A stretch of 64,000 nucleotides of DNA from Acanthochlamys bracteata (Eukaryota; Streptophyta; Magnoliopsida; Pandanales; Velloziaceae). Location of the stretch: the NCBI GenBank assembly GCA_019914995.1, contig CM034128.1, positions 808,501-872,500 of the forward strand. The letters run 5' to 3'. Below the pieces are notes generated by a model. The model saw nothing but the letters and a program-made list of their open reading frames with translations. It had not been told where the DNA came from and searched no databases. Position numbers and translations under genes: made by a program. This document shows positions 16,922 to 46,000 of the stretch, piece after piece; the first letter of the stretch is position 1; the number at the start of each line of letters is the position of its first letter.

Positions 16922-17433
16922 CCCTAAACTCTAGCTATTCTCTCAATCGAATTATTTTGATAAAATATTTTTATGCCTAGATAAAATATTTTTTATATAA
17001 GTTAAGTCTAAAAAATAGTAAAGTACTCTAAATAAAGGATAGTTGGCATAAATCTACAGTATGTTAGAAAATACTCTTAAAAGGTGGAGATTTTTGTAAA
17101 TGATATTATGTAAAAAATTTTCGGACCATATATTCTCCACCATCCGATCAAAATAATCTCCACCGTCCATTGAAGAGGTGGAGAAGCTATAAATGGGGAA
17201 TGCGAGCTCTCAATTGGGGCCATGAACGAATTCAATCAAGAGTTGTATCCAAGCCAAATAATATAAAGCTTTCTTTCTAAAAAGCTTTCTCTTCAAGTGT
17301 TCCTTATTTTCCCTCTAGTCAATTCAAATTTCTTAGCTATTTTTGATAACTCATTTGGGTGAAAGACTAACTAGCCACAAAGGAGCGTGACTAATTGCCG
17401 CACGAGCCAAGGTAAAACTCTAGATCCGTGACA
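16922..17433 (+). repeat. Left LTR of the gypsy-type element
   Basis: Shares a long collinear block with 19522-19980: CTATTCTCTCAATCGA near its start, GCCTAGATAAAATAT, a TATA-like CTATAAAT, GAGCTCTCA with GGGGCCATGAA, and the end before the primer-binding site. Its left edge is approximate. Confidence 0.75.
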
Positions 17434-19521: not shown

Positions 19522-19980
19522 ATGGCTATTTTGACTATTCTCTCAATCGAAATTACCTTGATAAAATATTTTATGCCTAGATAAAATATCTTATACATAA
19601 GCTAAGTCTAGAGAATGGCAAAGTACTTTAGATAAAAGATATTTGGTATAAATCTATAATAGATTAAGAAATACTCTAAAAATATGGAGATTTTTATAAA
19701 GAATATTATGTAAGAATTTTTCGGATTATATATTTTCCACCGACCGATCAAAATAATTTCCACCGTCCGTTGAGGAGATAGAGAAACTATAAATAAGAGA
19801 GGTGAGCTCTCATTTGGGGCCATGAAGCTCTCTCTTCAAGTGTTCTTTATTTTCCCTCTGATCCATTCAAATCTTTTAGCTATTTTTGATAGCTTATTTT
19901 GATGAAAGATTGACTTAGAAAAAAAAAAATTTGACTAAATACTGCACAAATCAAGATAAAACTCTAACTCTATGGAGTCA
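19522..19980 (+). repeat. Right LTR of the gypsy-type element
   Basis: Collinear with the left LTR with many differences and some length changes. It follows a purine-rich tract. No clean target-site duplication is visible, consistent with age. Confidence 0.75.
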
Positions 19981-20443: not shown

Positions 20444-22892
20444 ATGCAGAGTGGCTATGGAGGATGTGGAGGTGGGGGAGGAGGAGGCGGCGGTGTTTCA
20501 GAAATGCAGCAGTTCATGATCGACACAGGTGCAGCAGCAGCTTTGTTTCCAACAACCGCCGCCGCTGCCGTACCATTTCCCTTCCACCCTTCTTCTCACT
20601 CTCCTTCACATCACCCGCCGCCAGTACCGCAACAGTTCCATCAGTTCCATTCATTTCCTGTAACTCAACAACTTTTCCACCCAAATTTCCATTTTTTTCA
20701 AAACCAGCAGCAAAAACAGCAGCAGCAGCGAGAGCAACAACCGAGGTTGCAGCTTCACCAAGTCGGGTTAGAAGATTCTGGACCGGAGAGTTCGAGTCCT
20801 CCTACACTGCCTCAGCCTTTACCGTTAATTAACGGCGGTGGACCTGGGTTCTTGGCTTCCTCTATTAGCTTCAAGCTTTCTGTGAATGATAGCGGAAACG
20901 GTGAGGGCGGCGGCGGCGGTGTTGAAGACGGTGATGTGACGGAGACAAGCGGTATAACGACATGGCAAAGAGAAGAAGATTCTTCCATTAAAGAACCATT
21001 TTGGTGAGCAAGAAAATTTTTTCCTTCCCTGTTTTGAATGCCATGCATTGTTTTTTGTGATAATGCCCCTGAAAGGAAATGGGGAACTCTTTGGTCTCTC
21101 TGTTTCAGTCCTGCTTATTAGTGTTTTGGAACTAATTCTAGCTAGCATTTTGAAGAAATCGAAAAATAAAGTTCTTGATGATTCTTGAAGGATCATTTTT
21201 GAACCAATTAGCCAAAGAAGTTCCAAGAAAAGTTTCTATCAACGGTTTAACTCATTCCTAAAAAGGCAGCGTTGTAGAAGATAAAGATAGAAAGCCAGTT
21301 CATCTACTTCCCTGCTCGTGCTTTGCAAATTTTCAATTATGAAAGACTTTATCATCTTCACTTGTTGGCAAAATGTTAGCTTTTTTTTTTCCCTCCTATG
21401 ACTGCAAAGTTTTAAGTTTTAGTCTTCTCTGTTTTCATGAACTTGGACTTCATCAACAGAAACAACGACAACAACAAGAGAGGGAAGGAAAAACAACCAG
21501 CGAGTCCTCAAAACTACAGTACTAAGAGAATCAAAGAAACCGTTCACCTCGATAGCCAGCATGAACTCCGTAACATTAGTGGCAGCAATTACAAGCTCTT
21601 CAGTGAACTTGAAGCAATCTACAAGCTTGGAGGCGGTAGGGGTGGCGATGTTGGGAGTGGTGGGGGCGGAGGCGTTCCTAGTGCAAATAACCAGCAAACA
21701 GGCTCTGGTTCAGCCCTCACCGGAGATAACCCTGTAGGGAGTGAATGTATTCCCCATGCTGCAATTGATTCGCAAGGCTCAGATACCTCTACAGGGGAGG
21801 ATGCAGCGCAGCCTGTGAAGAACACGTTCAAGAAAGCAAGAAAGAAGCACCGATGGAGACGTTGGAAGCAGCAGTTGAGCTCGATTGCTTCCTTCTTTGA
21901 GAGCCTTGTGAAGCAACTGATGGAACACCAGGAGAGTCTTCATAGGAAATTCATTGAAGTTATTGAGCTGCGCGACCGTGACCATTCTGCCCGCAAAGAC
22001 ACGTGGCGGCAGCAGCAGGCTGCCAATGCCAGCAGAAGAGCTGCTGATCGTGCAAACGACCGCAGTCTTGCTGCGTCAAGAGAAGCGGTCATTATCTCAT
22101 TACTCGAGAAACTCACTGGAGAATCCATAGACTTTCCTCCACAAACCTCTGTAGAGACTGACGTTTGCAATCTTAACTCGGATGCTGCGACAATGAGTCC
22201 CTTAACGCCGATGAACTCCAGTAGACGGCCGAAGGTGGAAGTTCAGGCTTTGATCAGGGTTCGCAGTGGACTGGAAACCAGGTTTAAGGAGGCAGGATTG
22301 AAAGGGCCACTTTGGGAAGAAGTTAGTTCAGCAACGGCGGTGATTGGCTACCGCTGTAGTGCCAAACGGTGCAAGGAAAAATGGGAGAACATCAACAAAT
22401 AGGTCAGGAGGACGAAGGACAGCGGCAAGAGACGCCCGCAGCATTCCAAGATGTGCCCGTACTTCCACCAGCTTGACGAGCTCTACTCCAACTCACTCAA
22501 CAAGAGAACATCCACTTTCACAGAGCATTCGATTCGTTCAACAGTGGAAGGAAGGATAATTCAGAGCTGCTAGATGCCGTTGTAGTGTCCACCGTTCCAC
22601 CTAGCAACTTGAAGTCTTGAATAATAACAACAGCAATTTGTTGCCAGCAGAAATGGGATCACTGATGTTTGATTTCAATGACAAAGGCAACCGTGGTAAT
22701 GAGGAACAAGCCTGTCGCAATAATGTTCACGCCAATGATATGAGAACGTTAACAGAGATGGTGAAGCTAACAGAGTTCAGATGGAAGGAGAAGGAAAAAG
22801 CCGAGATGTTAACTGCAGTCAAGATCATGGAAGAACCCGAGGAAAGAAGCTTCAGATTAAGCACCAACGGCAAGCGAAAGAACAACCTATAG
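20444..22892 (+). pseudogene. Trihelix (GT-2/GTL2-like) transcription factor gene, disrupted
   Basis: Exon 1 (20444-21003) encodes a Gly-rich start, His/Gln-rich low-complexity sequence and REEDSSIKEPFW, ending at a good donor (GTGAGC). Exon 2 encodes NYKLFSELEAIYK, a basic stretch, a long central helix (SFFESLVKQLMEHQESLHRK onward) and a C-terminal trihelix, EVQALIRVRSGLETRF to KRCKEKWENINK. Three faults suggest decay. The expected 3' splice site before exon 2 (TTTTCAG) reads TTTTCATG, and no in-phase AG is found nearby. The Trp that usually starts the trihelix is Arg (RRPKVEV). A TAG replaces the Tyr of the expected NINKYF, although the same frame then continues with family-like residues ending FHQLDELY. 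Later sequence (22617-22892) sits in another frame. It could still make a truncated protein. Confidence 0.75.
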
Positions 22893-23366
22893 GCAATCCT
22901 ACTGATCGTTTCTTTCAAAGGTTAGAATCCTGAAAAACATTAGCTAACTAAAGATCCCCTGCAAAGTTGAACGAGTTGTATGTAAAACAACACGAGAGCT
23001 TTTTCTATGGGCTTGAACTTCTGTTTGGGCTTTCTCTATGGGCTGATCTTGGACTTTACCTATAAGACTTACGTAACGGCCCGTGCGAGTAATCTAAAAG
23101 AAAGAGACAGCCGGGCGGAGCTGAGAAGCGGACGAACTACTTCGTAAATCAGTTATTACAAAAACTAACAACAACTAAATTTAATCACTGGAACGAACTA
23201 AGTTCGGTTAAGAAATTTCAAAATAGAGGTAATATGAACGCCGTTGCATGGGTACCTTCAATTTATAACCAACTCCGGGCTAGTTATAAATACGGAACCT
23301 GTGAAAACATATTCCTGCACTGCACTGCATAGCTGAGAAGTATCTAAAACAAACAAACATTCAGCT
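22893..23366 (+). other. Promoter and 5' leader of PPO copy 1
   Basis: From 22977 on, this sequence is repeated at 30839-31228 upstream of PPO copy 2. It contains a TATA box and a short leader with A-rich AAACAAACAAAC close to the ATG. Nothing else is apparent. Confidence 0.6.
23285..23292 (+). promoter_or_regulatory. TATA box of PPO copy 1
   Basis: TATAAATA, 75 bp upstream of the ATG, a normal spacing for a plant RNA polymerase II promoter with a short leader. Confidence 0.7.
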
Positions 23367-24911
23367 ATGGCATTTCAACCTTCTTCAGGCATTCTCATTC
23401 TTATCGCCGTCTTGTTCTTGGCTTTCGACTCGCAGACATTTGCGAAACCGCTGCAAGGTCCTGACTTATCTCGGTGCTCTAACGTCAGCGAGTGCTGTAT
23501 TCCTCCGTCGGATGAAATTGTGGACTTCAAGCCTCCTCCGACTCAGAACCACGTATGCATGCGTCGCGCTGCCCATTTGGTCGACGAGGAATATAAGAGG
23601 AAGTTCGATAACGCTACGAAACTAATGAGGCAACTTCCTAAGGAACATCCCTGGAACTGGGAGCGACAGGCAGCCCTACATTGCGCCTATTGCGACTTCA
23701 AGCTTGACCAAGTAGGACATCCTGGAACAAAATTTGTCGTCCATGGGTCCTGGTTATTTTTCCCGTTCCATCGCGCGTATCTTTACTTCCACGAACGCAT
23801 CCTCGGCAAGCTTATCGGAGACGAAACGTTCAGGCTACCTTTTTGGAATTGGGACTCGCCCGACGGCATGGAACTGCCGTCTCTTTATATGGACCCGGAG
23901 TCTGCACTCTACGACAACACTCGCTGGCCTGAGCAGAAACCACTGAACCTCTTGAATTTCAAACCCAACGTAACATCCCCCCAGGAGCATATCAAGATGA
24001 ATCTTGGGTCTTTGTACCGAGTGATAGTTACCGGAGGTACCCCCGAGCAAATATTCATGGGAGGACCTTTTCGTGACGGAGACGACCTAGAACAATCTGT
24101 CGAAGGCACTCTGGAGAGGTACCAACACGCCACAGTGCATCGTACCGTCGGAGATAATATGGGAGATATACTTAAGGCCGGACTAGACCCCTTATTTTAT
24201 GCCCACCATGCCAATGTCGATCGTCTGTGGGAAATGTGGAGGCATCTCCCCGGACGACAAGACTTCTCCGACCCTGATTGGCTAGACTCTGCTTTCTTCT
24301 TCTGGGACGAGAACTTGCAACTCGTCCGAATCAAAGTGCGGGATGTTCTCGACACCAAGCAACTCGGCTACGTCTACGAAGACGTTCCGGCGCTTTGGCT
24401 TGATGCAAAAACCATTTTTCGTAGGATGACGACCCCCGCGTTTGAAGTACAGGCGTCTGTGTCCACGCCGGACATGTTTCCCCTTGTCCTAAGCAGCTCC
24501 CCTTTAAGAATTCCACTAAAGAGGAACGCCGATTTGTTCAACTTCTTTCTTCACGAACCGGCCGAAGATGAGGTGATCGTTATTAGAGGAATCAAATACG
24601 ATCCTACGCAACGGGTGGCGTTTGATGTTTATGTCTCCGTACCTTCGGCAACACCGACGAGAAACACCCTTGATTTATCCGACACGACAAGAACTCTTCC
24701 GATGGCATGGGCAGGAGGCTTCGCGAATTTCGCCAGCAGCGCAGCAAGTCACCAGCAAATCTCCCAGGAACTCATTATAGAGCTGCCCAATTTGCTAGCC
24801 AGCATCGGCGCCGAGAAGAAAAACTTGATCGTTATCACCATTGTTCCACAAATGATGACTACTAAAGTCGACATAGAGAGTATAGAGATCACCAATTTGT
24901 CTAAGCTCTGA
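23367..24911 (+). CDS. PPO: Polyphenol oxidase (catechol oxidase/tyrosinase), copy 1, secretory type
   Basis: Type-3 copper enzyme oxidising o-diphenols to quinones, linked to browning and defence. Intronless, 514 residues. CuA ligands are H105 (HCAYC, with the cysteine expected for the His-Cys thioether), H126 (VHGSW) and H135 (FPFHRAY). CuB ligands are H254 and H258 (HATVH) and H281 in DPLFYAHHANVD, which fits the tyrosinase signature. The DWL region (DPDWLDSAFFFWDE) and a C-terminal KFDV-type region (VAFDVYVS) follow. The N-terminus is a short hydrophobic signal peptide (ILILIAVLFLAF) with no plastid transit peptide or twin-arginine thylakoid signal, and N-glycosylation sequons occur (NVS, NAT, NVT). 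This suggests the secretory route and perhaps the vacuole, as reported for one poplar PPO. It is shorter than the usual precursor of about 590 residues because the bipartite plastid signal is missing. Confidence 0.96.
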   Translation: MAFQPSSGILILIAVLFLAFDSQTFAKPLQGPDLSRCSNVSECCIPPSDEIVDFKPPPTQNHVCMRRAAHLVDEEYKRKFDNATKLMRQLPKEHPWNWERQAALHCAYCDFKLDQVGHPGTKFVVHGSWLFFPFHRAYLYFHERILGKLIGDETFRLPFWNWDSPDGMELPSLYMDPESALYDNTRWPEQKPLNLLNFKPNVTSPQEHIKMNLGSLYRVIVTGGTPEQIFMGGPFRDGDDLEQSVEGTLERYQHATVHRTVGDNMGDILKAGLDPLFYAHHANVDRLWEMWRHLPGRQDFSDPDWLDSAFFFWDENLQLVRIKVRDVLDTKQLGYVYEDVPALWLDAKTIFRRMTTPAFEVQASVSTPDMFPLVLSSSPLRIPLKRNADLFNFFLHEPAEDEVIVIRGIKYDPTQRVAFDVYVSVPSATPTRNTLDLSDTTRTLPMAWAGGFANFASSAASHQQISQELIIELPNLLASIGAEKKNLIVITIVPQMMTTKVDIESIEITNLSKL

Positions 24912-25249
24912 TCGTACAAATGCATTATGTAACTAGCACTAACATAACAACAATTTTATCATCAGCCATCCAAAATGTAAATGACCACAATTTCATGTAT
25001 CAACACAAACAATGTTATACAAACGCCATGAACGCATGAAGTTTATCCAAAAAATGTTCCCGGTCTATAATTGATTACAAAAATTGCTTAGCCCTGGAAA
25101 AAATTCTAGGGCTCAAGTTCAGGTTACCCATTGAATCTCGTCTCTTGCAAGAAAAACATCCGTATTCCACCAATTTGAAAAGAGGTCCTCTCCTCTGAAT
25201 ACTTCAAAAAGCATGCGCAGAAGTACATCCCAGTGGAAATAAAAAACAG
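24912..25249. other. Convergent spacer between PPO copy 1 and PINX1
   Basis: 338 bp shared by the 3' UTRs of PPO (plus) and PINX1 (minus). The short distance makes overlapping transcript ends likely. No ORF or repeat apart from its copy at 32774-33111. Confidence 0.6.
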
Positions 25250-28200
25250 TTAGACTTTGATGAGCCTCACTTTCTTGCCTTCCACAATGAATCTTCTACT
25301 TCCCTCCAACTATAAGACAGAACCGCAGAGGTCATCAATTGCTTGGGGAAATAAATAAAAACAAGTACACCAATCAAGATTCTAGCCAACTTGAAGTGAG
25401 TAATACAAATATATTACGTCAAAAATAAGAACTTTCCGAACCGCCCACAAATGAAAAGAAAGGAAAATAAAAATTCTCAAACAGCTGTTTTTAGAAAACG
25501 AATGTAAAATGAGGATACCTTATTCTTTAAGAACGAAAGTCCCTCTTCCTTTGAAGAGAAGGTAGAAAATACAGAAGAGGAACTTGCTTCAACGAGTTCT
25601 TTAAGCTTCTTCAACCTCAATGATTGAGAAGGAGCCTTAAAAGAAAACACAAGACGTTATGAAATGCAATGAGTATTACCATACTAAGTCTAGTCTTTCA
25701 CTAACCTGGAGAAGAAGTTGCTTGCACAACTTTTTCAGTTTCGGTCTGGAATCAACATTATCAAAATCTTCTGCGCATTTTAGTCTTTTCAAATCAGTAG
25801 AATCTGAAGCATACTCCTTGTCACTGTCATCAAAACATTTCTTTTTTCCTTCCCAATAGCAACCTGCAACTTTCTTCGGTCGATCTTTAATTCCAAGACC
25901 CTGCTTCCCAGATGTTGCTTTATCCTATAAAGATTAGCATCACGTTATCGTTACAGATAAGGCACGATGAGGTGGAAAGCAATACAAAGATAGAGATATA
26001 GCAGCCAAAAAATGAAAAAGCTGAGAAAAGTTTAGCATATAGCAATCATCTTACTGATTTATTGACAGGGTACGAAACCTACCCACAGCATGTGCGATAC
26101 AATGTACTTGAGAGGCTAAACATTACCAGATATAAAGGCATTCATCAACCATTTCAGTGTTGCAAACTTATTAATGGCACAACTACAAAAGATGCAAAAC
26201 CTTTTGCTTTTTCCCAAGGGCGTCGAAGTGAAAACTTTGTGGCTCATCCAAGGGCTCCTATTTCAGTAACATATGGTAGAAAAAATCATGCATAACATAG
26301 GAGACATACAATACCATCCCTATAATACTCAGATGCATGGGAGCATCAGCCTAAGTAGTAGCATTTTTACTCATATCTAGAACCTTGGTTGTCCATTTCA
26401 GCATTTTGGTCATTACAAGTGGTTTCTCATCCAGCAATGAACGGTTCAGTGGCTCATGCATTATGAAAATATGTAAATAATCTTAGACAAGCTACTAAAG
26501 AATGATATACAGCATATTAAGTCTTCATCACACAATGTTGATACATATTCTGGTCGAAAATGTTGCTTCTCCTCTTCTAGGAACAAGCTATTCACTGAGT
26601 AAGACTGGGATAGATCAATATCGAGAAACTATTTGCATTCATAGCTTTAGCAATTAACTATGATAAAAGAGATACAAAGAAAGATCATTTTCAGAACTCA
26701 AAATTATCATGGGAATATTAACAAAAGAATATTAAAATTATAGTAACCATTTGAAGCGAATCATTACAATAGTTTAACCTTTGCAATTTATTAAGAAGAA
26801 ATGTATACAATACGCAAAATGGTCATTTACCTGGACAAGTTTGTAAAGATTTTCCTGATCTTCTTCATCAAATGCACTTCTCTCTTGCGAAACTGATTTA
26901 CAACCCTTTCTCTTGACGACAGACTTCGCTCCAAGAAACCCTCCCCAAACAAATCCATGCTTGTGACCCCACCAGTCAAGCTTTGCAGCATCACGAGCAT
27001 CTGAACCTGTGCTCATAACATATGCCATGTAAACTTTGCAAAAATCAAACTCAGCAAAAGGAAAAACTAGGTATAGGATATGGCTACAGAATTCAGAAGA
27101 AGTATACATAATGGTAACAATATAACTTTAAAAGTAAATGTCATGCTAAATGTACACCAGAAACTTATTACTAAGAAATGCCCTAGCACCACAAGATACA
27201 ATGATCACTTCACAAGAATGGTGCTATACCATCCCACACAGATATAAACATGGCAGTATGCACAATGACATCATTGCAGCGTCACAGTGATCAGTCACAA
27301 ATTTTTTGAAAATTATCCCCAATCACAAATAATTCTGATGCAAGAAAAGGTTTGCCAAGTTAAAAAGATTAACAAACAAAAGTATAGATGAATTGTGGTT
27401 GCTAGACTTACTGTACAACAATAGCTCCTCTCCTCCACAAGCACGATACTTTCAAAGTATTAATTGTAAACTAGAATTGCTGAAATAAAATGTCACTACA
27501 AAATTCATAGAGGAGGAACACAGGCCAAATGAAGGAGAGTCAACAGACCAAAAGAGAAAGTAAAACAGCAAAACCAAATGGCTAAAGGAAACTCCCAAGG
27601 GCATGCCAATATGCATACCTCCTTCTTGATAGACTTGAGGCTCTATTAATTCTGATGAAGGTTCACTATCTGAGTCAGGTATAGCCTCCTTTTTCTCTTC
27701 AACCTTATTGCACTGAAAAAGTACCATATGGCTATCAAAGCAACGAACCAAAACAAAAAGTATACTGCCAAAATCAAATCATCAATAGAAGCGATACTAT
27801 CTCAGCTAATGAGTATCTCAATCAACCTAGCTAGCGTCGTCCTTGATTAACTTAATCAACCTAGCAATACCATGCTTGAGCATTACTACACCACCTTCTT
27901 ACATCACCAACTAATAGAAAGTGATAATCAGCATATAACTGGTGAATAATAATGGTTGATTTGGCTGAGAAATTGGTAGAATTGCATTGTTGCATGCATA
28001 AAACGAATTATAGGAAAGCAGCGAGATTAGTAGATTCTCTAAGTATATGTTTGCACCAACAACCAAAAGATTAGATGGATTTAATCTTTGATTATATATT
28101 TTTACTATATTGATATTGGAGTTGATTTTGCACAAACCCAATCTTAATTACGAGAGGAAGGGAGAGAACATCCGAAATGTTAAATCCAAGTGCTTCAAAA

Positions 28201-29514
28201 CTTCACTAGGAGTTTGTTACTGAATAGTCATTTAGAAGGGTTGTGACAATGCCCCTCCAGCTCAAGTGGAATTAATCATCCAATGTATATATTCTCTGTG
28301 CTTACTTATGGGCGCATCAATACATGAAAAAAGACACTGGCGCGAACATCTGCGTGCATTTTCACAAGATACATAGCTACATATACATATGGACAAGCAT
28401 GCGTGACTTCCACTAGTAAGTACATGCTAAAACACCACAACATCTAATGTAATTTTCAACATCTAAACAAACAGTTCCATTAAGAAAATTATTCATTTAG
28501 TAATTGAGTTGAAGGAGAAGTAAGAAATTACAAGAATTCCTTGAAGATCAATTGTTGAGTATGTCTTGACAATCTTTCCGCGCTCCCTTTTCTTATACCT
28601 ATACAGAATTCATAAGAGAGGCAAAAGGAAGTGAATCAGTCAAACGGTTCTTACGGTGCCAACATACATTATAAGCAACTGACCTCCCTTGTGGACGAGT
28701 ACTTTTCTCGACTGCGCTACTTTGTAATTTGTTTTCTCCAGCTTGTTCTTTTTCATGACTCTCTGTGGATTCTGTAGATAACAATAACATTTTATATATG
28801 ACAAAACATGGTCACTCGCCACAAGCTTTAAAAGAGTCAAACTGTCAGTCTGGTACCTTTAGCAATAGGTTCAGCTATTTGCTGCAACAAAAACAAATGA
28901 TAATTTTATTTAAAGATATTTGTTACAAGTTCTAAATTTGAAGGAATGCTGGAAAGGCGTCGAGAACATACCACTTTTAACTTTTTAAGAATGTTATCAA
29001 ATTGACTGGTATCAAATACCCAATTGTTCACCTTATCCAAGCCCACACCTATACACATCCACACAAGTATGGCATTATTCCCTCACGCTTTCTATCGAAA
29101 CAAACTGTGCCATTAAATCTAGCATACAAATATAAATGCCAATTGAGGGAGAAAAACACCTGCTGTATCCTGTTTATTCTTCACTGTGATATGTCCCTTG
29201 ATTCCTTGCTTGTCTTTTCCAAGCCCTTCCCCCTCTTCCCATCCCTATGACAATTACAAGATAAAAATTCCAAGTAAGTGGATGCAGCGCAACTTGAGAA
29301 GCAACAAACGTCACGCACATGAATAAACTAAAAATTTGTCTGCGGATCAATATTTGTGTTACTCTCCTCAATGTTCCAACAACAAAGAACACAATTTAGA
29401 AGCAACAGAGAGAGAGAGAGAGAGAGAGTAGAATACCATTTGCTTCATGAGACGGAAGGCGGCAGACTCACGGGCAACGCCGGAGTAGCACGCCGGAGCC
29501 CCCGGCGAACCCAT
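25250..29514 (-). CDS. PINX1: PINX1-like G-patch protein
   Basis: Homologue of PIN2/TERF1-interacting telomerase inhibitor 1, a nucleolar G-patch protein that activates an RNA helicase in rRNA processing and, in animals, binds telomerase. Eleven in-phase exons: 29437-29514, 29160-29244, 28972-29048, 28857-28881, 28684-28771, 28532-28598, 27619-27712, 26831-27006, 25706-25924, 25519-25635, 25250-25309, giving 361 residues. The G-patch spans exons 1-3: [20 protein letters not shown], then [19 protein letters not shown] and DNWVF-like sequence (VNNWVF). The C-terminal half is Lys-rich and ends KKVRLIKV. Exon 4 is only 25 nt. The last three exons lie inside the duplicated core, so they are copied at 33112-33785. 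Confidence 0.9.
29407..29428. repeat. (AG)11 microsatellite in PINX1 intron 1
   Basis: Uninterrupted AG repeat of 22 bp a few bases from the exon 1 donor; likely to vary in length. Confidence 0.9.
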
Positions 29515-30838
29515 CTAGGGTTTGGAATCTAACTCTAAAAAATAAACCTCGCCGCCGACCGCCGTCGTGTCTTTGATAAACACAAGAAAGAGGTGGAGAG
29601 AAAGAAAGCAACTAATAAAAACCTGCGAGATGCAAATATGAACGCGCACGGAAGCAAAATAAAAAATAAAAAAGAAATTTCATTGATCAAATCATACGCC
29701 AGGCGTACGATGGGAACGTTTTAATCACCGTTGGATTGATTCTACTTCTAGCAGATCAGCTGAGTTCGGTCCGCTTGGGTTACACAGCGGCTGTGTGACT
29801 GCTTTTTATTATAATTATATTTCTAATAAGTTTTTATTGTATTTTAAAAATGTCTTTATTATTTAAAGTATTGATGAAATAAATATTATAAATTTTACAT
29901 ACATAAGTTTTTCAAATAGAAAAATAAATCTATTATTTGAAAGTTTTAAATAAATTTTTTAACATGTTTTATTTTAAGAAATTTTAAACGATACTCTATT
30001 TGGCTGAGCTATGAATCAAATTTAAGAGCTTGTTTAGTAGTGCTTTTTTTATTATAATTTTTATTTTATGTTTCTTGAAAATTTATAATATTTTATAAAA
30101 TTTTAAAAATTTTAAGATTATAGAAAAATTTGACTCATGAGATTATTATTTATTTTTTTAATAAAAAAGTGAAGTTTGTTTTCTAAAAATTTAAAAAATA
30201 TTTATCATTTTAGAAAAACTCTTTTTAAAAAATTATTAGCAAATATTTTTCTAAGTCTTGTACTCGGTGAAAAAATATTTTCAGATCAACTTATTTAATA
30301 ATCAAATTTTATTTATTTAATTTTAACCTAATTTATATATTTATATGAATTAAATGTTTCAATTTGAATTCTAATTAAATAGATTAATTTTAAATTAATT
30401 TTTCAGATCAGTTCATATATTATTACTCGTATAAAAAATAAGTACTCAATTAAATAGCAGTTGGTCGAGTGAATTGATAGAAAGGATTTATAGACTTCGA
30501 TACAGTTGACGATCTTTTACGTGAGACAGCCACACTTGTGCAGGGATCCCAGTTTTCATGAAATCCTTAACTTAAACTTGTCAAGCATTCTGGCAACCCA
30601 GATGAAACCCAGGAATTGCTCCAACTTCGAACAACGTTTAAGAGTTGAGACTTTGGCAAGGATACGTAACTGGAGACATCAACCTACTGATAACATGTAA
30701 GACAAGTAAAGGATCAATCAGGGAGTCCTAAAACTTTTGGTACTACATACAGAAATGCTTGCTTAAATACAATAACACTGGCACTCGCAGTAAAAAACTT
30801 TCATAAATAGAAATTGATTCTTATGTAGGTAGCTAAGC
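29515..30838. other. Intergenic: PINX1 promoter, AT-rich block, copied REVEILLE 3' flank
   Basis: The PINX1 promoter lies at the left, followed by about 650 bp of AT-rich DNA (29810-30470) with MITE-like composition. From about 29650 to the end the sequence is homologous, with clear divergence, to about 34000-35060. No gene is supported. Confidence 0.55.
30507..30838 (-). repeat. Orphan copy of the REVEILLE gene 3' flank
   Basis: Collinear with about 34690-35060, which lies just downstream of the REVEILLE 6-like gene. Shared words include GGCAACCCAGATGA, CATACGTAACTGGAGAC-like sequence and GGGAGTCCTAAAACTTTTGG. Substitutions and small indels separate the copies. It marks the end of the first duplication unit, directly next to copy B at 30839. 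Confidence 0.75.
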
Positions 30839-31146
30839 TGTATGTAAAACAACACGAGAGCTTTTTCTATGGGCTTGAACTTCTGTTTGGGCTTTCTCTA
30901 TGGGCTGATCTTGGACTTTACCTATAAGACTTACGTAACGGCCCGTGCGAGTAATCTAAAAGAAAGAGACAGCCGGGCGGAGCTGAGAAGCGGACGAACT
31001 ACTTCGTAAATCAGTTATTACAAAAACTAACAACAACTAAATTTAATCACTGGAACGAACTAAGTTCGGTTAAGAAATTTCAAAATAGAGGTAATATGAA
31101 CGCCGTTGCATGGGTACCTTCAATTTATAACCAACTCCGGGCTAGT

Positions 31147-31154
31147 TATAAATA
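31147..31154 (+). promoter_or_regulatory. TATA box of PPO copy 2
   Basis: TATAAATA, 75 bp upstream of the copy 2 ATG, in sequence identical to copy 1. Confidence 0.7.
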
Positions 31155-31228
31155 CGGAACCTGTGAAAACATATTCCTGCACTGCACTGCATAGCTGAGA
31201 AGTATCTAAAACAAACAAACATTCAGCT

Positions 31229-32773
31229 ATGGCATTTCAACCTTCTTCAGGCATTCTCATTCTTATCGCCGTCTTGTTCTTGGCTTTCGACTCGCAGACA
31301 TTTGCGAAACCGCTGCAAGGTCCTGACTTATCTCGGTGCTCTAACGTCAGCGAGTGCTGTATTCCTCCGTCGGATGAAATTGTGGACTTCAAGCCTCCTC
31401 CGACTCAGAACCACGTATGCATGCGTCGCGCTGCCCATTTGGTCGACGAGGAATATAAGAGGAAGTTCGATAACGCTACGAAACTAATGAGGCAACTTCC
31501 TAAGGAACATCCCTGGAACTGGGAGCGACAGGCAGCCCTACATTGCGCCTATTGCGACTTCAAGCTTGACCAAGTAGGACATCCTGGAACAAAATTTGTC
31601 GTCCATGGGTCCTGGTTATTTTTCCCGTTCCATCGCGCGTATCTTTACTTCCACGAACGCATCCTCGGCAAGCTTATCGGAGACGAAACGTTCAGGCTAC
31701 CTTTTTGGAATTGGGACTCGCCCGACGGCATGGAACTGCCGTCTCTTTATATGGACCCGGAGTCTGCACTCTACGACAACACTCGCTGGCCTGAGCAGAA
31801 ACCACTGAACCTCTTGAATTTCAAACCCAACGTAACATCCCCCCAGGAGCATATCAAGATGAATCTTGGGTCTTTGTACCGAGTGATAGTTACCGGAGGT
31901 ACCCCCGAGCAAATATTCATGGGAGGACCTTTTCGTGACGGAGACGACCTAGAACAATCTGTCGAAGGCACTCTGGAGAGGTACCAACACGCCACAGTGC
32001 ATCGTACCGTCGGAGATAATATGGGAGATATACTTAAGGCCGGACTAGACCCCTTATTTTATGCCCACCATGCCAATGTCGATCGTCTGTGGGAAATGTG
32101 GAGGCATCTCCCCGGACGACAAGACTTCTCCGACCCTGATTGGCTAGACTCTGCTTTCTTCTTCTGGGACGAGAACTTGCAACTCGTCCGAATCAAAGTG
32201 CGGGATGTTCTCGACACCAAGCAACTCGGCTACGTCTACGAAGACGTTCCGGCGCTTTGGCTTGATGCAAAAACCATTTTTCGTAGGATGACGACCCCCG
32301 CGTTTGAAGTACAGGCGTCTGTGTCCACGCCGGACATGTTTCCCCTTGTCCTAAGCAGCTCCCCTTTAAGAATTCCACTAAAGAGGAACGCCGATTTGTT
32401 CAACTTCTTTCTTCACGAACCGGCCGAAGATGAGGTGATCGTTATTAGAGGAATCAAATACGATCCTACGCAACGGGTGGCGTTTGATGTTTATGTCTCC
32501 GTACCTTCGGCAACACCGACGAGAAACACCCTTGATTTATCCGACACGACAAGAACTCTTCCGATGGCATGGGCAGGAGGCTTCGCGAATTTCGCCAGCA
32601 GCGCAGCAAGTCACCAGCAAATCTCCCAGGAACTCATTATAGAGCTGCCCAATTTGCTAGCCAGCATCGGCGCCGAGAAGAAAAACTTGATCGTTATCAC
32701 CATTGTTCCACAAATGATGACTACTAAAGTCGACATAGAGAGTATAGAGATCACCAATTTGTCTAAGCTCTGA
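31229..32773 (+). CDS. PPO: Polyphenol oxidase, copy 2, secretory type
   Basis: The translated protein is identical to PPO copy 1 over all 514 residues, with the same six copper-binding histidines, signal peptide and C-terminal region. The TATA box and leader are also the same, so both copies should be expressed alike unless more distant sequence differs. Upstream of copy 2 lies the copied REVEILLE 3' flank instead of the trihelix gene. Coding-sequence identity at this level implies a very recent event, recent gene conversion, or an assembly duplicate. Confidence 0.95.
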   Translation: MAFQPSSGILILIAVLFLAFDSQTFAKPLQGPDLSRCSNVSECCIPPSDEIVDFKPPPTQNHVCMRRAAHLVDEEYKRKFDNATKLMRQLPKEHPWNWERQAALHCAYCDFKLDQVGHPGTKFVVHGSWLFFPFHRAYLYFHERILGKLIGDETFRLPFWNWDSPDGMELPSLYMDPESALYDNTRWPEQKPLNLLNFKPNVTSPQEHIKMNLGSLYRVIVTGGTPEQIFMGGPFRDGDDLEQSVEGTLERYQHATVHRTVGDNMGDILKAGLDPLFYAHHANVDRLWEMWRHLPGRQDFSDPDWLDSAFFFWDENLQLVRIKVRDVLDTKQLGYVYEDVPALWLDAKTIFRRMTTPAFEVQASVSTPDMFPLVLSSSPLRIPLKRNADLFNFFLHEPAEDEVIVIRGIKYDPTQRVAFDVYVSVPSATPTRNTLDLSDTTRTLPMAWAGGFANFASSAASHQQISQELIIELPNLLASIGAEKKNLIVITIVPQMMTTKVDIESIEITNLSKL

Positions 32774-33111
32774 TCGTACAAATGCATTATGTAACTAGCA
32801 CTAACATAACAACAATTTTATCATCAGCCATCCAAAATGTAAATGACCACAATTTCATGTATCAACACAAACAATGTTATACAAACGCCATGAACGCATG
32901 AAGTTTATCCAAAAAATGTTCCCGGTCTATAATTGATTACAAAAATTGCTTAGCCCTGGAAAAAATTCTAGGGCTCAAGTTCAGGTTACCCATTGAATCT
33001 CGTCTCTTGCAAGAAAAACATCCGTATTCCACCAATTTGAAAAGAGGTCCTCTCCTCTGAATACTTCAAAAAGCATGCGCAGAAGTACATCCCAGTGGAA
33101 ATAAAAAACAG
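32774..33111. other. Spacer downstream of PPO copy 2
   Basis: Copy of 24912-25249. Here it leads into a PINX1 fragment that has lost its promoter. Confidence 0.6.
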
Positions 33112-33785
33112 TTAGACTTTGATGAGCCTCACTTTCTTGCCTTCCACAATGAATCTTCTACTTCCCTCCAACTATAAGACAGAACCGCAGAGGTCATCAA
33201 TTGCTTGGGGAAATAAATAAAAACAAGTACACCAATCAAGATTCTAGCCAACTTGAAGTGAGTAATACAAATATATTACGTCAAAAATAAGAACTTTCCG
33301 AACCGCCCACAAATGAAAAGAAAGGAAAATAACTTTCTCAAACAGCTGTTTTCGAGAAACGAATGTAAAATGAGGATACCTTATTCTTTAAGAACGAAAG
33401 TCCCTCTTCCTTTGAAGAGAAGGTAGAAAATACAGAAGAGGAACTTGCTTCAACGAGTTCTTTAAGCTTCTTCAACCTCAATGATTGAGAAGGAGCCTTA
33501 AAAGAAAACACAAGACGTTATGAAATGCAATGAGTATTACCATACTAAGTCTAGTCTTTCACTAACCTGGAGAAGAAGTTGCTTGCACAACTTTTTCAGT
33601 TTCGGTCTGGAATCAACATTATCAAAATCTTCTGCGCATTTTAGTCTTTTCAAATCAGTAGAATCTGAAGCATACTCCTTGTCACTGTCATCAAAACATT
33701 TCTTTTTTCCTTCCCAATAGCAACCTGCAACTTTCTTCGGTCGATCTTTAATTCCAAGACCCTGCTTCCCAGATGTTGCTTTATC
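33112..33785 (-). pseudogene. PINX1: PINX1 3' fragment (exons 9-11 only)
   Basis: Copies of the last three PINX1 exons at 33567-33785, 33380-33496 and 33112-33171, with splice sites and stop intact. Exons 1-8, including the whole G-patch, are absent. No promoter is evident, so it is a partial gene copy. The coding parts match the complete gene. Confidence 0.9.
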
Positions 33786-33993
33786 CTATAAAGATTAGCA
33801 TCACGTTATCGTTACAGATAAGGCACGATGAGGTGGAAAGCAATACAAAGATAGAGATATAGCAGCCAAAAAATGAAAAAGCTGAGAAAAGTTTAGCATA
33901 TAGCAATCATCTTACTGATTTATTGACAGGGTACGAAACCTACCCACAGCATGTGCGATACAATGTACTTGAGAGGCTAAACATTACCAGATA

Positions 33994-35382
33994 AAAAATT
34001 GTGACACGCATGCAACCAAAAGAACAAAGGAAGTCACTGATCAAGTCATACTCTAATCGTACTGTGCGAACGTTTTATTCACCGTTAGATTGATTCTTAC
34101 TTCTACAAGATCGGTGAGTTCGTTTCAGTACGAGTCCGCCTGGGTTACATACAGACATCTACATAGAAATTATTTATAAAATAAATTTTTTTTAAAATAA
34201 AATTTTTATTATTTTTTATTTTTTAAAAAATAATAAAAATATGTAACTAAAAAAATTTCATTATATAAAATTTTTTTACACTATCTAAATTTTTAAATAA
34301 ATTTATTAAATACTTATAAAATATGTATTGAAAAATATAAAATAAAAAAAAATTAAAAAACTAATTTTGGTATGCACTACCAAAAGCAAAAATCATTTGT
34401 AGTAGGTGAAAATCTCAACAGTTGTCGAATGAAATCTCTGCTTATGAAAACGTTTGACTAAACTTTTCAAAAAATTAATTTTTTAAAATTTAAAATTATA
34501 CTTTTTAAATATAGTTTTTAATAAACATTTAATAATTTTATTTAAAAATTAAAAAATTTTATGTAATGAAATATTATTTATTTCTATTACTTTTTAAATT
34601 AAAAACAATAAAACTTACTTTTTAAAATAAATAAAAATATTCTTTATTATAAAAAGATTCTATTTCAAAACACTCCCGCTCACGATCTTTTTACGTGACG
34701 GCTATGTAAAATGTGAAAACCACCTGCAGTTTACATAGCCAAACCTGTGCAGGCATCCCAGTTTCTTGTAAATCCAATCCCACAGTTTTCAAGAATTTGG
34801 CAACCCAGATGAGACCAACGAATTGCTCCGACTTCAGACAATGTTTAAGGCTTTACATGCTAAAGGTAAGCATACGTAACTGGAGACGTTATGCTGCGAT
34901 TACAATAGACATCATCCTACTGATAACATAGAAGACAACTAAAAGATCCATCAGGGAGTCCTAAAACTTTTGGTACTACATACAGAAATGCTTGCTTAAA
35001 TACAAGAACACTGGCACTCAAAAGAAATATACACTCGAAACTTTCATACATGAAAATGCGTAATTTGCAATATGTACAGACAATTTCCATGACCATACTA
35101 CATCAAACTAGACGGCTTAAATTACTTTGGTACCAATAGTTTGTGTTTCTGATAAAAAAACTGCTGCATCAACAATGTCAAATCTCCTCGTCAACAGCTA
35201 CCCAGCAAATTTATGATGCATCGGAAAGAGTTGCAAGGCCAAGGATTCATATTTGGGCATATTTATAGTACATATAGAAAATTAACATTTATTCACCTTT
35301 CACCCTGAGAAAAAATGAGGAGCTCGTAAGGTAAGACCAGAAGAAAATCATGTAGAATCAGCCAGGCTATGAAGTATGCAAC
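33994..35382. other. Diverged second copy of the PINX1-REVEILLE spacer
   Basis: Homologous to about 29650-30838 at both ends, with differing AT-rich filler (34160-34680). The filler resembles short AT-rich elements: 34150-34390 shares long AT words with 63800-64000. The part from about 34690 is the 3' flank of the REVEILLE gene. No ORF is supported. Confidence 0.6.
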
Positions 35383-40116: not shown

Positions 40117-43093
40117 TAGAACTCAATCAAATCGATTAAAAGCAGAGAATCAACAACCTAACAGAACACGAAATTAGAAAACAACTGAAACAAATCATAT
40201 AAAGTGTGAGAGTTGTGAACGCGGTGGTGGTAAAATTTTGTAGAGAGATTGCCTGCGTGCGGTTTAGAGAAAGAAAGAAGTAAGAAAAAATGAAAAATGA
40301 AAACAGAGAGGGTGTGTTTTGTGTTGTGAACTTGTGATGCGGTAGTTGTGGGGTTTATTTTGTTAATGTCACTCCTTATTTCTTCTGGCTGGGAGAGCTT
40401 CGGAGACCAGAGCTTCAATGCTTCCCGGTTGTTCTAGTCCGTGGTTTTGATATTTAGAATAAACAAGACCTTCTCAATTTTAATTTAGCAATATATGGTC
40501 CTTAACATTTACGTTAATAGAAATTTTAGTCCTTTACATAATAATGTTTAGCAGTTACCTTGGTTCTTAATTTATTTCTTTAGGCCTGTTTTTTAATATT
40601 TGGTAGAACAGTTTCCTTGATGGTTTAGTTTTATTAGAATGTGGTCCTTTGTAGCTTACTAACTTCTGCGAAAAGTCCTCCTTCTAATCAGAATGGTTGG
40701 TGTTGCGTTTTCCTAATAAGGAAACGAAACATAAACTCTATGAAAATGAAAAAACTTTGAAAAGAAATATAAGGATAACGATATGTCTGCACTGAATGCT
40801 TCGATAAGAATGGATGGCTATATCATGATATAAAAAATTTCTTTCTTTTTTTCTTATAATAAATTACTTTTAATTTATTTTTATTATAAAAAATATTTTA
40901 ATTTTCTTTACTTAATTAACTCATATGTTATTTATTTTTACAAATTATGACTTTTCTAACAATCTTTTTGACCTATTTATACTGCGTGCGAATAACATAA
41001 CACGTACGCGCAGAGTTGTCAAGCATATTAGTGAAATTTTAGACGCAACGAGTACGTGGGCCTTCATCCTCTTGCCATATGGTAAAGCTAGTGTGCCAAA
41101 CGAATCGTGAACCAGTGAAACCGTTAAAGAAAGAACATAAATAAACAAAAAAATAGAGGGTTTTATAAAGGACGCCCCGGCGAAAGAATGCAACATGTAT
41201 CACTCTTTTATACATTATAGACTTATTTACCTTTTATATGAGTTTTTTTTAATTTATTTTAAAATTGATCTTTTACTATTCTTTTATAAAAAAAATTAAT
41301 TTCGGTTCAAAATAACAAGACTTTGAGAATAGTTTTTTGACATTTTGTGAAAGTACTTATATTTTTTAATAAATTTTTTATAATAGAATATATAATTTAT
41401 TAAAAATTTAAAAAAATAAATAATTTTCGTAATAAAATTTTTTATTATAGTTTTTTAAAATAAAATATTAAACTTATTTTTAAATAAAAATATTTTTAAT
41501 TTTAAAATAACTTTCAAACGCCTCATGTGTCCACCATTCCTGTTTGTGAGTCCGGCCAAGTGCAGAATCACAAACACAGCACAAGAATCCCTTCCATGAT
41601 TGAGGACGAAAGTACACTAATGATTGATGAAAAGCATGTGCATTCACTTACAAAGTATTTCTCTTTCCTGTTTTCTAGCATTTTATTTTTTTTTAAAAAA
41701 AATTTACAACTCACTTTAATTTAAGCTAAATATTAAAAACTAAATTTTTTATTTTTTGCAAAATATTCTATTTCTAATATACAAAATTTAAAACTAAAAA
41801 ATTTTACTTTAAACTCACTTTTAACATTAAATAAATATAAAAATTAACTCATTTTAAAATGTACTTTTTAAATAATTTATTTTTTAATTTAGTTTTGAAA
41901 ATTCAGTGAGAGCAAACAAAAAAAAAAAAAAAAAACCGACCTAAACTAGTTTCAGGAAAGACGTCACAAAAATGTTACATAAAAAACAATAAACTTTGAA
42001 AATCATCCCCACGCTAACAATTACTACTAGCTCTTTTTTAGCATGTTTCAAATATTTATAATACTATTTTTTTAATCAAATTTTAAATTTTAAATAATTT
42101 ATATATTTTAATTATATAAAAAATTTAAAACTATATTTTTACATATAAAACTTAATTTTAATTTTTTTAATTACACACTTTTTATATAATTATATTTATT
42201 AATTTCAAAATATTTAAAAAATTTTTTTAAATATAAATACTGAATTTTATTTTTACTTTATTTTTAAAAAAATTTTATTTTTACGAAATTTAATTACAAA
42301 TATTTAAACGTCAAAACAAGATCGGAAATCTTTCTCAGGTGGGAACCTTTTTCGGGTCGAGTTCAAAATAATCCCATAGACAAAGGTTCCACCGTTGCAT
42401 CCATCGTACTACTTCAACGGAATTAACTTGTAGGAAACAACGAGCAAAAGAAAAAATGATTCCTCATCGAAAAACTCAGATATAATTTGAAGCATCTATT
42501 TGAATCGTACTCCGATTATCATCTCACTGATATGATAGCAGAAACAACATTGAACCATTTCTCAAGGTCCGGAAACCTGTGCCTACTCACCAACCCAATT
42601 CGAAGCACCTCATTGACAATGCATTGAGAAATACTAGTTCTCAAGGTCCCGTAACCTGTGCCTACTCGGCCAACCAAATTCGAAGCACCTCTTCCCCATC
42701 CATTGAGAAATACTAGTTCTCATGGTCCGGTAACCTGTGCATACTCGTCAACCCCCAATTCGAAGCACCTCTTCCCCATCCATGATCCATTGAGAAAATA
42801 CTAGATTGCATTGTCAAAAGGTTACCTTTTCAGCAGGTTGTGCATCAAGTTTGGTAGGGTACAACTATATACAGAAGATACCTAACGTTGATTTTATACA
42901 AGACCAAACCCAATGATTTTCTATTTCCCATTTTCATCTGTTTATATTCCCTAGAACCAGATTGGATACAATTGCACACACCCCTTACTTGAGCTATATC
43001 AAACTACAAGCAAGAATGCACCAGCAGGAAGGATGAGAACCACCCATGCGACCACAGGGTGATCAACAGTATCCCATGTAAATTACACAAACA
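40117..43093. other. Long AT-rich intergenic region
   Basis: Nearly 3 kb. The left part (40117-40430) is the REVEILLE 5' UTR and promoter. The middle (40840-42310) is very AT-rich, with several blocks resembling short AT-rich elements and an A-run near 41920. The right part holds a 79-bp tandem repeat (42561-42804) and then CBE1 3' UTR sequence. No gene is supported. Confidence 0.5.
42561..42804. repeat. Minisatellite, about three copies of a 79-bp unit
   Basis: Units start at 42561, 42640 and 42719 with CTCAAGGTCC or CTCATGGTCC. Each contains AACCTGTGC, ACTCG or ACTCA, AATTCGAAGCACCTC and CATTGAGAAATACTAG. Copies 2 and 3 share CTTCCCCATCCA, which differs in copy 1. It lies about 0.3 kb beyond the CBE1 stop codon. 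Confidence 0.9.
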
Positions 43094-46000
43094 TCATCTG
43101 TACCTGAAACCCATGTCCAGCTCTGGACCATAGAAGCCAGGAATATTGCTGCTGGCAGTAGGGTGGACCTGCTTCTGATTAGCTCTCAGCTCCATTTCGA
43201 TCAACCTCTGGAGAACCTCTGGGTGACTATTCTCACCACTCCCAATAATAGGCCCTGACATAGTCATTTAAACCAAATTAATCACAGGCACGCATCTGGT
43301 TGAATTGAATCTGGAAATGCAGTCCAAAAATGTCGATAAAAGCAGAAGAAGAGTTGAAAGAACAAAACAATCAACACCCAATCTGATTTTTGAAATTTGA
43401 AGATACTGACCAGGAACTCCTATACCAAGGCTCCCATAGTTTTCCTGTGGATGATTAATGGGAAAGCCATGTAAATTGTTAGCGTTTGGTGCATACCCAG
43501 GTAAGTGACTAGCATGATGAGAAAGTGGAATATCTCTTGGCAAATTTTGGAGCGTTTGATGAGAAGGAAAATTTTCATGCATCATTTGAGGATGATGTGG
43601 AGAAGGACCATAAGGTGGCCCTCCAGCATTTGGAAAAGGAGGACGAGGAATGATATTGGGTGGTAAAGGGTGATGAGCCTCATGATGGATGATGCCTTCT
43701 GGACCCATAAATCCGACATGAGGGTTTCGATTAGTATGGTGATCCATCAGTGGAAGTGGAGGGTGTAGATGGTGGATCTGCTGAGGCAATTGGGGAGGTA
43801 TCCTAGCTTGCAGCTGGTGTAAGAGATCAGCAGACTGGCCATGATCATCAGGAGCACGTAAAGAAGCAGAGCCCGGCAGGCGATGTTTTCCCATATGCTG
43901 TCCCTCTATTGGCAGCACCACCTTCTCAGGCAAGAAGTCAACAAGATCCTGGTTCCCTTCCAAAGTAGGTGGGCCATGCAAGCCAGTTCTATTCACATGC
44001 TGTCCCTCCCTAATGCCAAATAATGGGATATCCATCTCATCAACTGTCTTATCAGACAAATTATTCTCAATCTGGTGGGCATTCCTGCGAGGTAAGTGAT
44101 CAGCAAATAGGGGATCCAAAGAACCACCCAGTGTAATCAAGCTCTCCTCTTCTGGTAGTTGAACTTCTAACTGACTCCCTTCATACCTCCTTTCCATAAG
44201 CTTTAAGCCATCAAACGATGATTGCTGATATCCTTGCCACAAACTTGATTTTGCTTTTGCTTTTGCATTTTCTTCTTCAGTCTGGCTAAAAATATCGCTG
44301 TTGTTGCCATCTAAACTAATATTTGATTGAGATGTAGAATGAACAAAATGACCATCTGAATGTAGAAGTGGAATTGCATGATATTGATGATTAAGTTGGT
44401 GAGTTCTGCTAGTGGGGCCCCTCTGAGCTGAAACCGGAGTATTTCCTGATTGCAGATCGTTCATAAATCCTGCCCCAAAAAGTGCGGCGAGAGTCGAGGT
44501 ATTGTCTGAATTTTGGGCTGTGTCTGAACTTTTAATAACGTCACAGATTGTATCAGGATAGTGGTTATTAGGATCAATGAACATTAATTTGTCAAAAGCA
44601 GCTGCATCTGCTTTGAGGGACAGCTGATCCTTTGAGTTTGTTCCCTTCAGTAGCAAAGCAAGCAGATGTTGTGACGCATTATTATCTACACCAACTTTCT
44701 GCTCTTCCAGTTTATTGCTATCACTTTCTGTTAAATGCTCTGAAATAGAATGAGAGCTCAAACAACCATCTTTAACCTCAGCCAAAATGAGCTGCTCAAG
44801 GTCCTCACAGGTAAGGACGCTTGAGCCTAAATCCTGCTTGGTGCTATGATTATATGTACCACCAGCGAGGCCTGCAGGGGATGATAGCAGCTTTTGTAAA
44901 CCTTCATCCTTCCCATACTGCAAAGTTGGAAGCTTCACCTCAACAGTTTTACCATCAGAGCTTAAAGTATTTTGCAGGCCAACTTCCTCATTGCATGCAA
45001 ATAAAGAGAGCAAGTTGCCAGATGACAAATCCTCTTGGGGCTTCTTGTCTACAATGGAACAGTAAACAAATGAGAATCATCACATAACTTAAACCAAAGA
45101 AACAACCTGAAATTAATAGGCCTACCATGTTCAAGAAACCAATGGGCAAATTTGGAAGAACTGGAGGCAGCAATGTTGAAAACATCCTCATCTTTAACAC
45201 TTGGATGCTGAAAAGCAGCATATCTCAAAAGGTCAGTGGTTTGCACCTCATACGCATCAAAATATCCTAAATCCCTCCCCACTCCCCAAAACTAGAGGAT
45301 TTAAATTTCATAAAAGAATGAAACAAAAGTTACTAATTAGACTTATACACATGTACCATACATTGCAAATATCTCTATGCATTCAAAACTCAAACAACAC
45401 TTCGTTTTACATGCATAAAGAATATAACCAAAAACAGCACCATTATGTAAAAAACCATATGAAAAATTAAAAATCATGAATTTTATATCAGGCAATATAT
45501 TCAATCAAAATGATAACATAAGACTGCAAACTGCACACCATGGATCCTATATCTATGACTTCAGATTGGTGCATCTGTATGTCATGAACAAAGAAGACTC
45601 TTAACTGCAACATTTACCAAGGCAAGAATTACACAGAGGAATTTTGGAGTGAAAAAAGGCAGCTTAAAAGAAGAAGTACTAAACAAACAAGTAAAAGAAC
45701 GGCTTCAAATTCGATATATACATAGGATCCAAATCAGGCTCCTTGAGTACCTACTCTTCAATAGAAGTGGAATGTTTAGACATTGCGCGTTAGTTGTTCT
45801 AAAGCAAGAAAGAAGTCTAGTATGTTGTAGCAATGAATCAGTCACTCCTGCATGGATCAGTTATAGCAAGATATTTGATTCTAACAATTAGTATAGATAC
45901 TTGCCAACTAGATCAGTAAAAGAGCAATGCTGTATCTTAGCAAAGTTAATCAGCATTTTGTCCAAACTAAAGCTACTTGCTAACATGTACGACATATAAG

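Follow-up and report, generated by a model that had tools for sequence, protein, structure and literature searches.

A nearly identical polyphenol oxidase block inside an older, diverged duplication in Acanthochlamys bracteata

Genes and repeats of the locus

The window, that is, the whole stretch of 64,000 nucleotides analyzed here (G+C 37%), contains two polyphenol oxidase (PPO) genes, each lying in one copy of a core repeat of about 3.16 kb. A G-patch gene is located between the PPO genes, and an older, diverged duplicated sequence (R) is found on both sides of core 2. The features are as follows, with the basis of each in parentheses.

22977..26132, plus strand: core copy 1, comprising the sequence upstream of PPO, the PPO gene, and the 3' end of the G-patch gene (BLAST, alignment)
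23367..24911, plus strand: PPO gene 1, one open frame without intron, 514 aa, with Pfam domains Tyrosinase, PPO1_DWL, and PPO1_KFDV (ORF, Pfam)
25250..29514, minus strand: an 11-exon G-patch gene, giving one open frame on splicing (exon limits placed by eye)
25469..25495, counterpart 33330-33356: the only differences between the cores (seven columns), within the final G-patch intron (core alignment)
29663..30816: R1, an old duplicated sequence on the 5' side of the G-patch gene, with a copy of the presumed 3' tip of the next gene at its end (BLAST, shuffle tests)
30817..30838: junction at the left of core 2, with about 20 bases assigned to neither parent, at the old duplication junction (shuffle tests, junction scan)
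30839..33993, plus strand: core copy 2, the same as core copy 1 except for one 27-bp stretch (BLAST, alignment)
31229..32773, plus strand: PPO gene 2, one open frame without intron, identical 514-aa protein (ORF, tblastn)
33112..33785, minus strand: truncated second G-patch copy, exons 9-11 only (coordinates derived manually from the alignment of the cores)
33994..34017: junction at the right of core 2, where 20-24 bases show no significant similarity to the homologous position (84 of 300 shuffles score equally)
34018..35058: R2, the homologue of R1, right of core 2 (BLAST, shuffle tests)

The predicted protein is assigned to the plant PPOs by its domains, the tyrosinase copper domain together with PPO1_DWL and PPO1_KFDV (Pfam E-values 6.7e-32, 3e-23, and 5.2e-14, respectively), and 6els, a plant PPO, is its best relative of solved structure (E 1.1e-109). 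All five copper-site motifs that were searched for (histidine motifs and HCAYC), namely HCAYC at residue 105, HGSW at 126, FPFHR at 132, HATVH at 254, and HHANVDR at 280, are present and aligned with 6els. Both proteins look complete, and their N-terminus, judged by eye, is hydrophobic and resembles a signal peptide, with no twin arginine (RR) in the first 60 residues. A tblastn search of the window for further PPO copies returned the two PPO genes and three matches with E-values of 2.6 to 9.7.

The exons of the G-patch gene join at GT/AG borders, and a G-patch domain match occupies the first 88 residues of the product (Pfam, E 9.1e-17), which presumably resembles the PINX1-type proteins. Exons 9-11 (25924-25250) lie inside core 1, and exons 1-8 (29514-26831) lie outside it. 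The right end of R1 (30528-30816, matching 34737-35058) we read as a copy of the terminal 3' part of the following gene on the minus strand, whose exons are found near 38-40 kb. The naming of that gene as Myb-like is weak, with a Pfam match in one of the three pieces scanned (E 0.011, below the curated cut-off) and none in the other two; it contains a SHAQKYF motif, which is typical of REVEILLE-type proteins. On the other side of the locus, about 95 bp left of core 1, is a gene at 20444-22880 (plus strand) with a partial Myb/SANT-like domain (PF13837), a putative trihelix-like transcription factor gene. It reads as broken, with an in-frame stop and two frameshifts (the latter seen by eye), and could be a pseudogene in real decay or reflect a local sequence error.

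Identity step between cores and flanks

BLAST within the window aligns 22974-26136 with 30836-33997 at 99.7% identity; no other repeat pair of more than 100 bp with E < 1e-10 exceeds 95% in the window. In a global alignment of the cores (3156 versus 3155 bases), seven columns differ, six by substitution and one by an indel, and all of them are confined to the 27-bp stretch, the rest of the core being without any difference. A reading made earlier from the letters of the sequence (the sequence-only reading) had reported that the cores differ at a handful of bases and that the two PPO proteins are the same, and both statements hold. Outside the 27 bp, the identity extends over the coding and non-coding parts of PPO, its upstream region, third codon positions, and the exons and introns of the G-patch fragment. 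Since non-coding DNA and the G-patch fragment are identical too, constraint on the PPO enzyme cannot explain the identity of the core.

The flanks are older. In 300 dinucleotide shuffles, the scores of three segment pairs were never reached, 29663-29784 versus 34018-34149, 30528-30786 versus 34737-35019, and the 22-bp 30795-30816 versus 35038-35058. Between them, the AT-rich middle (29791-30500 versus 34151-34700) barely aligns, its score being reached by three of 300 shuffles; thus the earlier description of the flanks as plainly homologous with many differences applies to the two ends and hardly to the middle. In three solid flank blocks, 18 of 104, 25 of 142, and 7 of 113 ungapped columns differ (Jukes-Cantor 0.20, 0.20, and 0.065), so that the flanks appear uneven, with about 17% divergence in two blocks and 6% in the third. 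The sequence-only reading had let its mosaic depend on the flanks being less similar than the core, and at these divergences they are. The 6% block is the last 113 bp of the old flank (30674-30786 versus 34907-35019); its low divergence may reflect 3' UTR constraint or a second, older conversion.

At 17.5% divergence about 550 differences would be expected in the core by simple arithmetic, against the seven observed. At an assumed rate of 6.5e-9, the Jukes-Cantor distance of 0.20 in two flank blocks gives a duplication age of roughly 15 million years. For the core, assumed rates of 4e-9 to 1.5e-8 substitutions per site and year give a 95% upper bound of about 0.12 to 0.03 million years, a soft bound, as polishing could have erased a few true differences. 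A single even-aged duplication, in which selection or a low mutation rate would have preserved the likeness of the cores, is rejected and we consider it extremely improbable: selection might act on the PPO genes, whose open frames are intact, but third positions, upstream region, introns, and a G-patch fragment lacking exons 1-8 are all identical outside the 27 bp, against diverged flanks.

The chance that seven independent differences fall in one 27-bp stretch is about 3e-12 (about 3e-8 for five), and because independent clustering is so improbable, one event or one remnant is more likely. A remnant of older sequence fits better than scattered new mutations; alternatively, the cluster can be a local multi-base mutation. 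Its left half corresponds to a 6-base inverted copy of nearby sequence, as expected of a template switch in the direction from copy 1 to copy 2, and in the control for this assignment two of the 16 possible dinucleotides pass, the observed one included. A single template switch making the whole cluster has no solution in either direction, and the right half is left without such an explanation as well. No clear stable single-strand hairpin was found in the cluster, with 60 of 200 shuffles folding equally for copy 1 and 14 of 200 for copy 2 (z -0.48 and -1.62). By eye, both copies contain the short palindrome AAACAGCTGTTT, flanked on both sides by the only differences between the cores.

An artefact of assembly or polishing, in which two haplotypes or copies were joined or similar cores were falsely equalised by the consensus, seems unlikely to us, although polishing can remove divergence of around one percent, a dense difference cluster could survive it, and the broken trihelix-like gene beside core 1 may be a local error. 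Between alleles, a drop from about 100% identity in the core to 83% immediately next to it would hardly be expected. Further, the sequences that adjoin near 30817-30838 do not overlap (an equal match is obtained with 53 of 300 shuffles), the window has no second repeat pair over 100 bp and above 95% identity, and poor sequence quality is countered by the 11 exons of the G-patch gene, which give one open frame when spliced.

Edges of the identical block and origin of the second copy

The interval from 26137 to about 29662 in unit 1, some 3.5 kb that include G-patch exons 1-8, has no counterpart in unit 2, a point on which the earlier reading was silent; the right edge of the core is consequently a deletion junction in unit 2. 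To the left of core 2 lies the copied 3' tip, where the 22-bp match to R2 is retained up to the junction. The left flanks of the two cores show no excess match to each other (53 of 300 shuffles reach the score), and their immediate right flanks are unrelated (246 of 300). To the right of core 2, homology with R1 resumes after 20-24 bp (34018 versus 29663), at a point that adjoins the start of the G-patch gene in unit 1, as predicted by one tandem unit with a deletion. A four-base AGAT is common to the right junction and the 5' side of the G-patch gene (by eye), which is within chance. Thus the edges of the identical block are the edges of homology, the old duplication junction on the left and the deletion of about 3.5 kb on the right.

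A transposon carrying PPO was considered and rejected. With 60 bases compared at each end and 25-base windows at the junctions, there is no terminal inverted repeat (402 of 500 shuffles score equally) and no convincing target-site duplication, the longest shared word being four bases at copy 1 and three at copy 2.

The locus has one feature looked for as a mark of gene conversion, a sharp identity block within an older duplication, non-coding sequence included. Another, diverged homologous sequence abutting the tract in both copies, was looked for at both edges and not found, and at the core edges there is no switch between converted and unconverted sequence inside continuous homology, as classical conversion shows. 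The mosaic had been attributed to conversion, nested duplication, or artefact; the sharp step and the rejection of an even-aged duplication bear this out in part, and the evidence favours recent overwriting, that is, conversion in the wide sense, with the reservation that the switch inside homology is missing.

An old tandem duplication followed by recent non-reciprocal overwriting of the PPO part of unit 2 from unit 1 has, in our estimate, an even chance of being the correct account. The ancestral tandem unit would have comprised PPO, the G-patch gene, R, and the 3' tip of the Myb-like gene, a block presumably duplicated long ago, after which the two units would have drifted to the observed divergence of about 17%. 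Unit 1 would have kept the whole block, and unit 2 PPO, G-patch exons 9-11, and R. The identity step suggests that a copy of the corresponding 3.16 kb from unit 1 took the place of unit 2's PPO part at a much later time. The seven differing columns in 3156, all within 27 bp, set against about 17% in two of the three flank blocks, speak for overwriting, and the left core edge is explained by the old duplication junction. On the other side, just a few bases separate each end of the identical block from the end of homology; a typical conversion tract terminates inside homology, with diverged margins left beside it. There is also no direct sign of an older, diverged PPO in unit 2, the right edge has its 20-24 bp without significant homology, the 27-bp cluster is possibly a local mutation, and the flanks appear uneven.

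Because both edges of the block coincide with edges of homology, we propose, tentatively and with less confidence than overwriting as such, that the core was copied and the G-patch exons were lost together in one repair event. In the simplest form, a break in unit 2 would have been repaired through strand invasion with unit 1 as the template, and joining of the newly made strand to the 5' flank of the G-patch gene would then have removed exons 1-8 of the second G-patch gene. Such an edge-to-edge replacement in a decayed tandem array may at once have regenerated a complete second PPO, copied from the neighbouring gene, and cut short the G-patch copy beside it.

The same map is obtained by insertion of the core between R1 and R2. 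Here only the flank R would have been duplicated long ago, side by side, with no older second PPO, and a 3.16-kb copy of the PPO core would have been inserted recently as filler DNA at the R1/R2 junction. R1 and R2 are indeed nearly adjacent once core 2 is removed, both core edges are sharp, and each junction has about 20 unassigned bases. We nevertheless regard this insertional duplication as rather improbable, as it would have to land by chance no more than about 20 bp from the old junction, and insertion by a transposon is opposed by the missing terminal inverted repeat and target-site duplication.

Comparison with known systems

The proposed recent overwriting of the PPO part of unit 2 resembles gene conversion between plant tandem paralogues, for instance in resistance-gene clusters, in that a block of recent identity lies inside older paralogous sequence. 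It differs in that the PPO block stops at the end of homology and is joined to a deletion, instead of switching within homology. It also resembles filler-DNA or synthesis-dependent repair in plants, where a nearby template is copied into a break and the end is joined with little homology; 3.16 kb would be long for filler DNA. Two identical PPO genes within such an old, diverged duplication suggest that one was recently overwritten with its neighbour's sequence; this kind of process is known, but the block has unusually sharp boundaries.

If confirmed, the locus would be a clean natural example of two identical plant enzyme genes despite an old duplication, and would caution that dating tandem genes by their coding divergence alone can greatly underestimate their age, the contrast here, at assumed rates, being roughly 15 million years for two flank blocks versus less than about 0.03 to 0.12 million for the core.

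Tandem PPO clusters are familiar in plants. According to a land-plant survey (PMC3472199) and studies of Oryza (PMC12876524) and faba bean (PMC10033403), PPO genes multiply by tandem duplication, as here; truncated copies are described as common in Oryza (PMC12876524), and PPO copy number as differing between faba bean lines (PMC10033403). The term "gene conversion" does not occur in the main text of PMC3472199 or PMC12876524 and occurs once in PMC10033403, in the reference list; among the papers listed from an open-access collection, none concerned PPO gene conversion as judged by title and opening of the abstract. The survey describes a clade of signal-peptide PPOs that includes poplar PtrPPO13 (PMC3472199), and the N-terminus of the PPO of this study looks, by eye, like such a signal peptide.

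Further observations in the window concern other repeats. A second pair of direct repeats, 16935-17422 and 19535-19966, with 80-83% identity, lies left of the trihelix-like gene. Finally, a minus-strand open frame of 586 codons (43268-45028), without Pfam match at E 0.001, is located about 0.5 kb from a tandem array at 42559-42783, which consists of 2.8 copies of a 79-bp unit.
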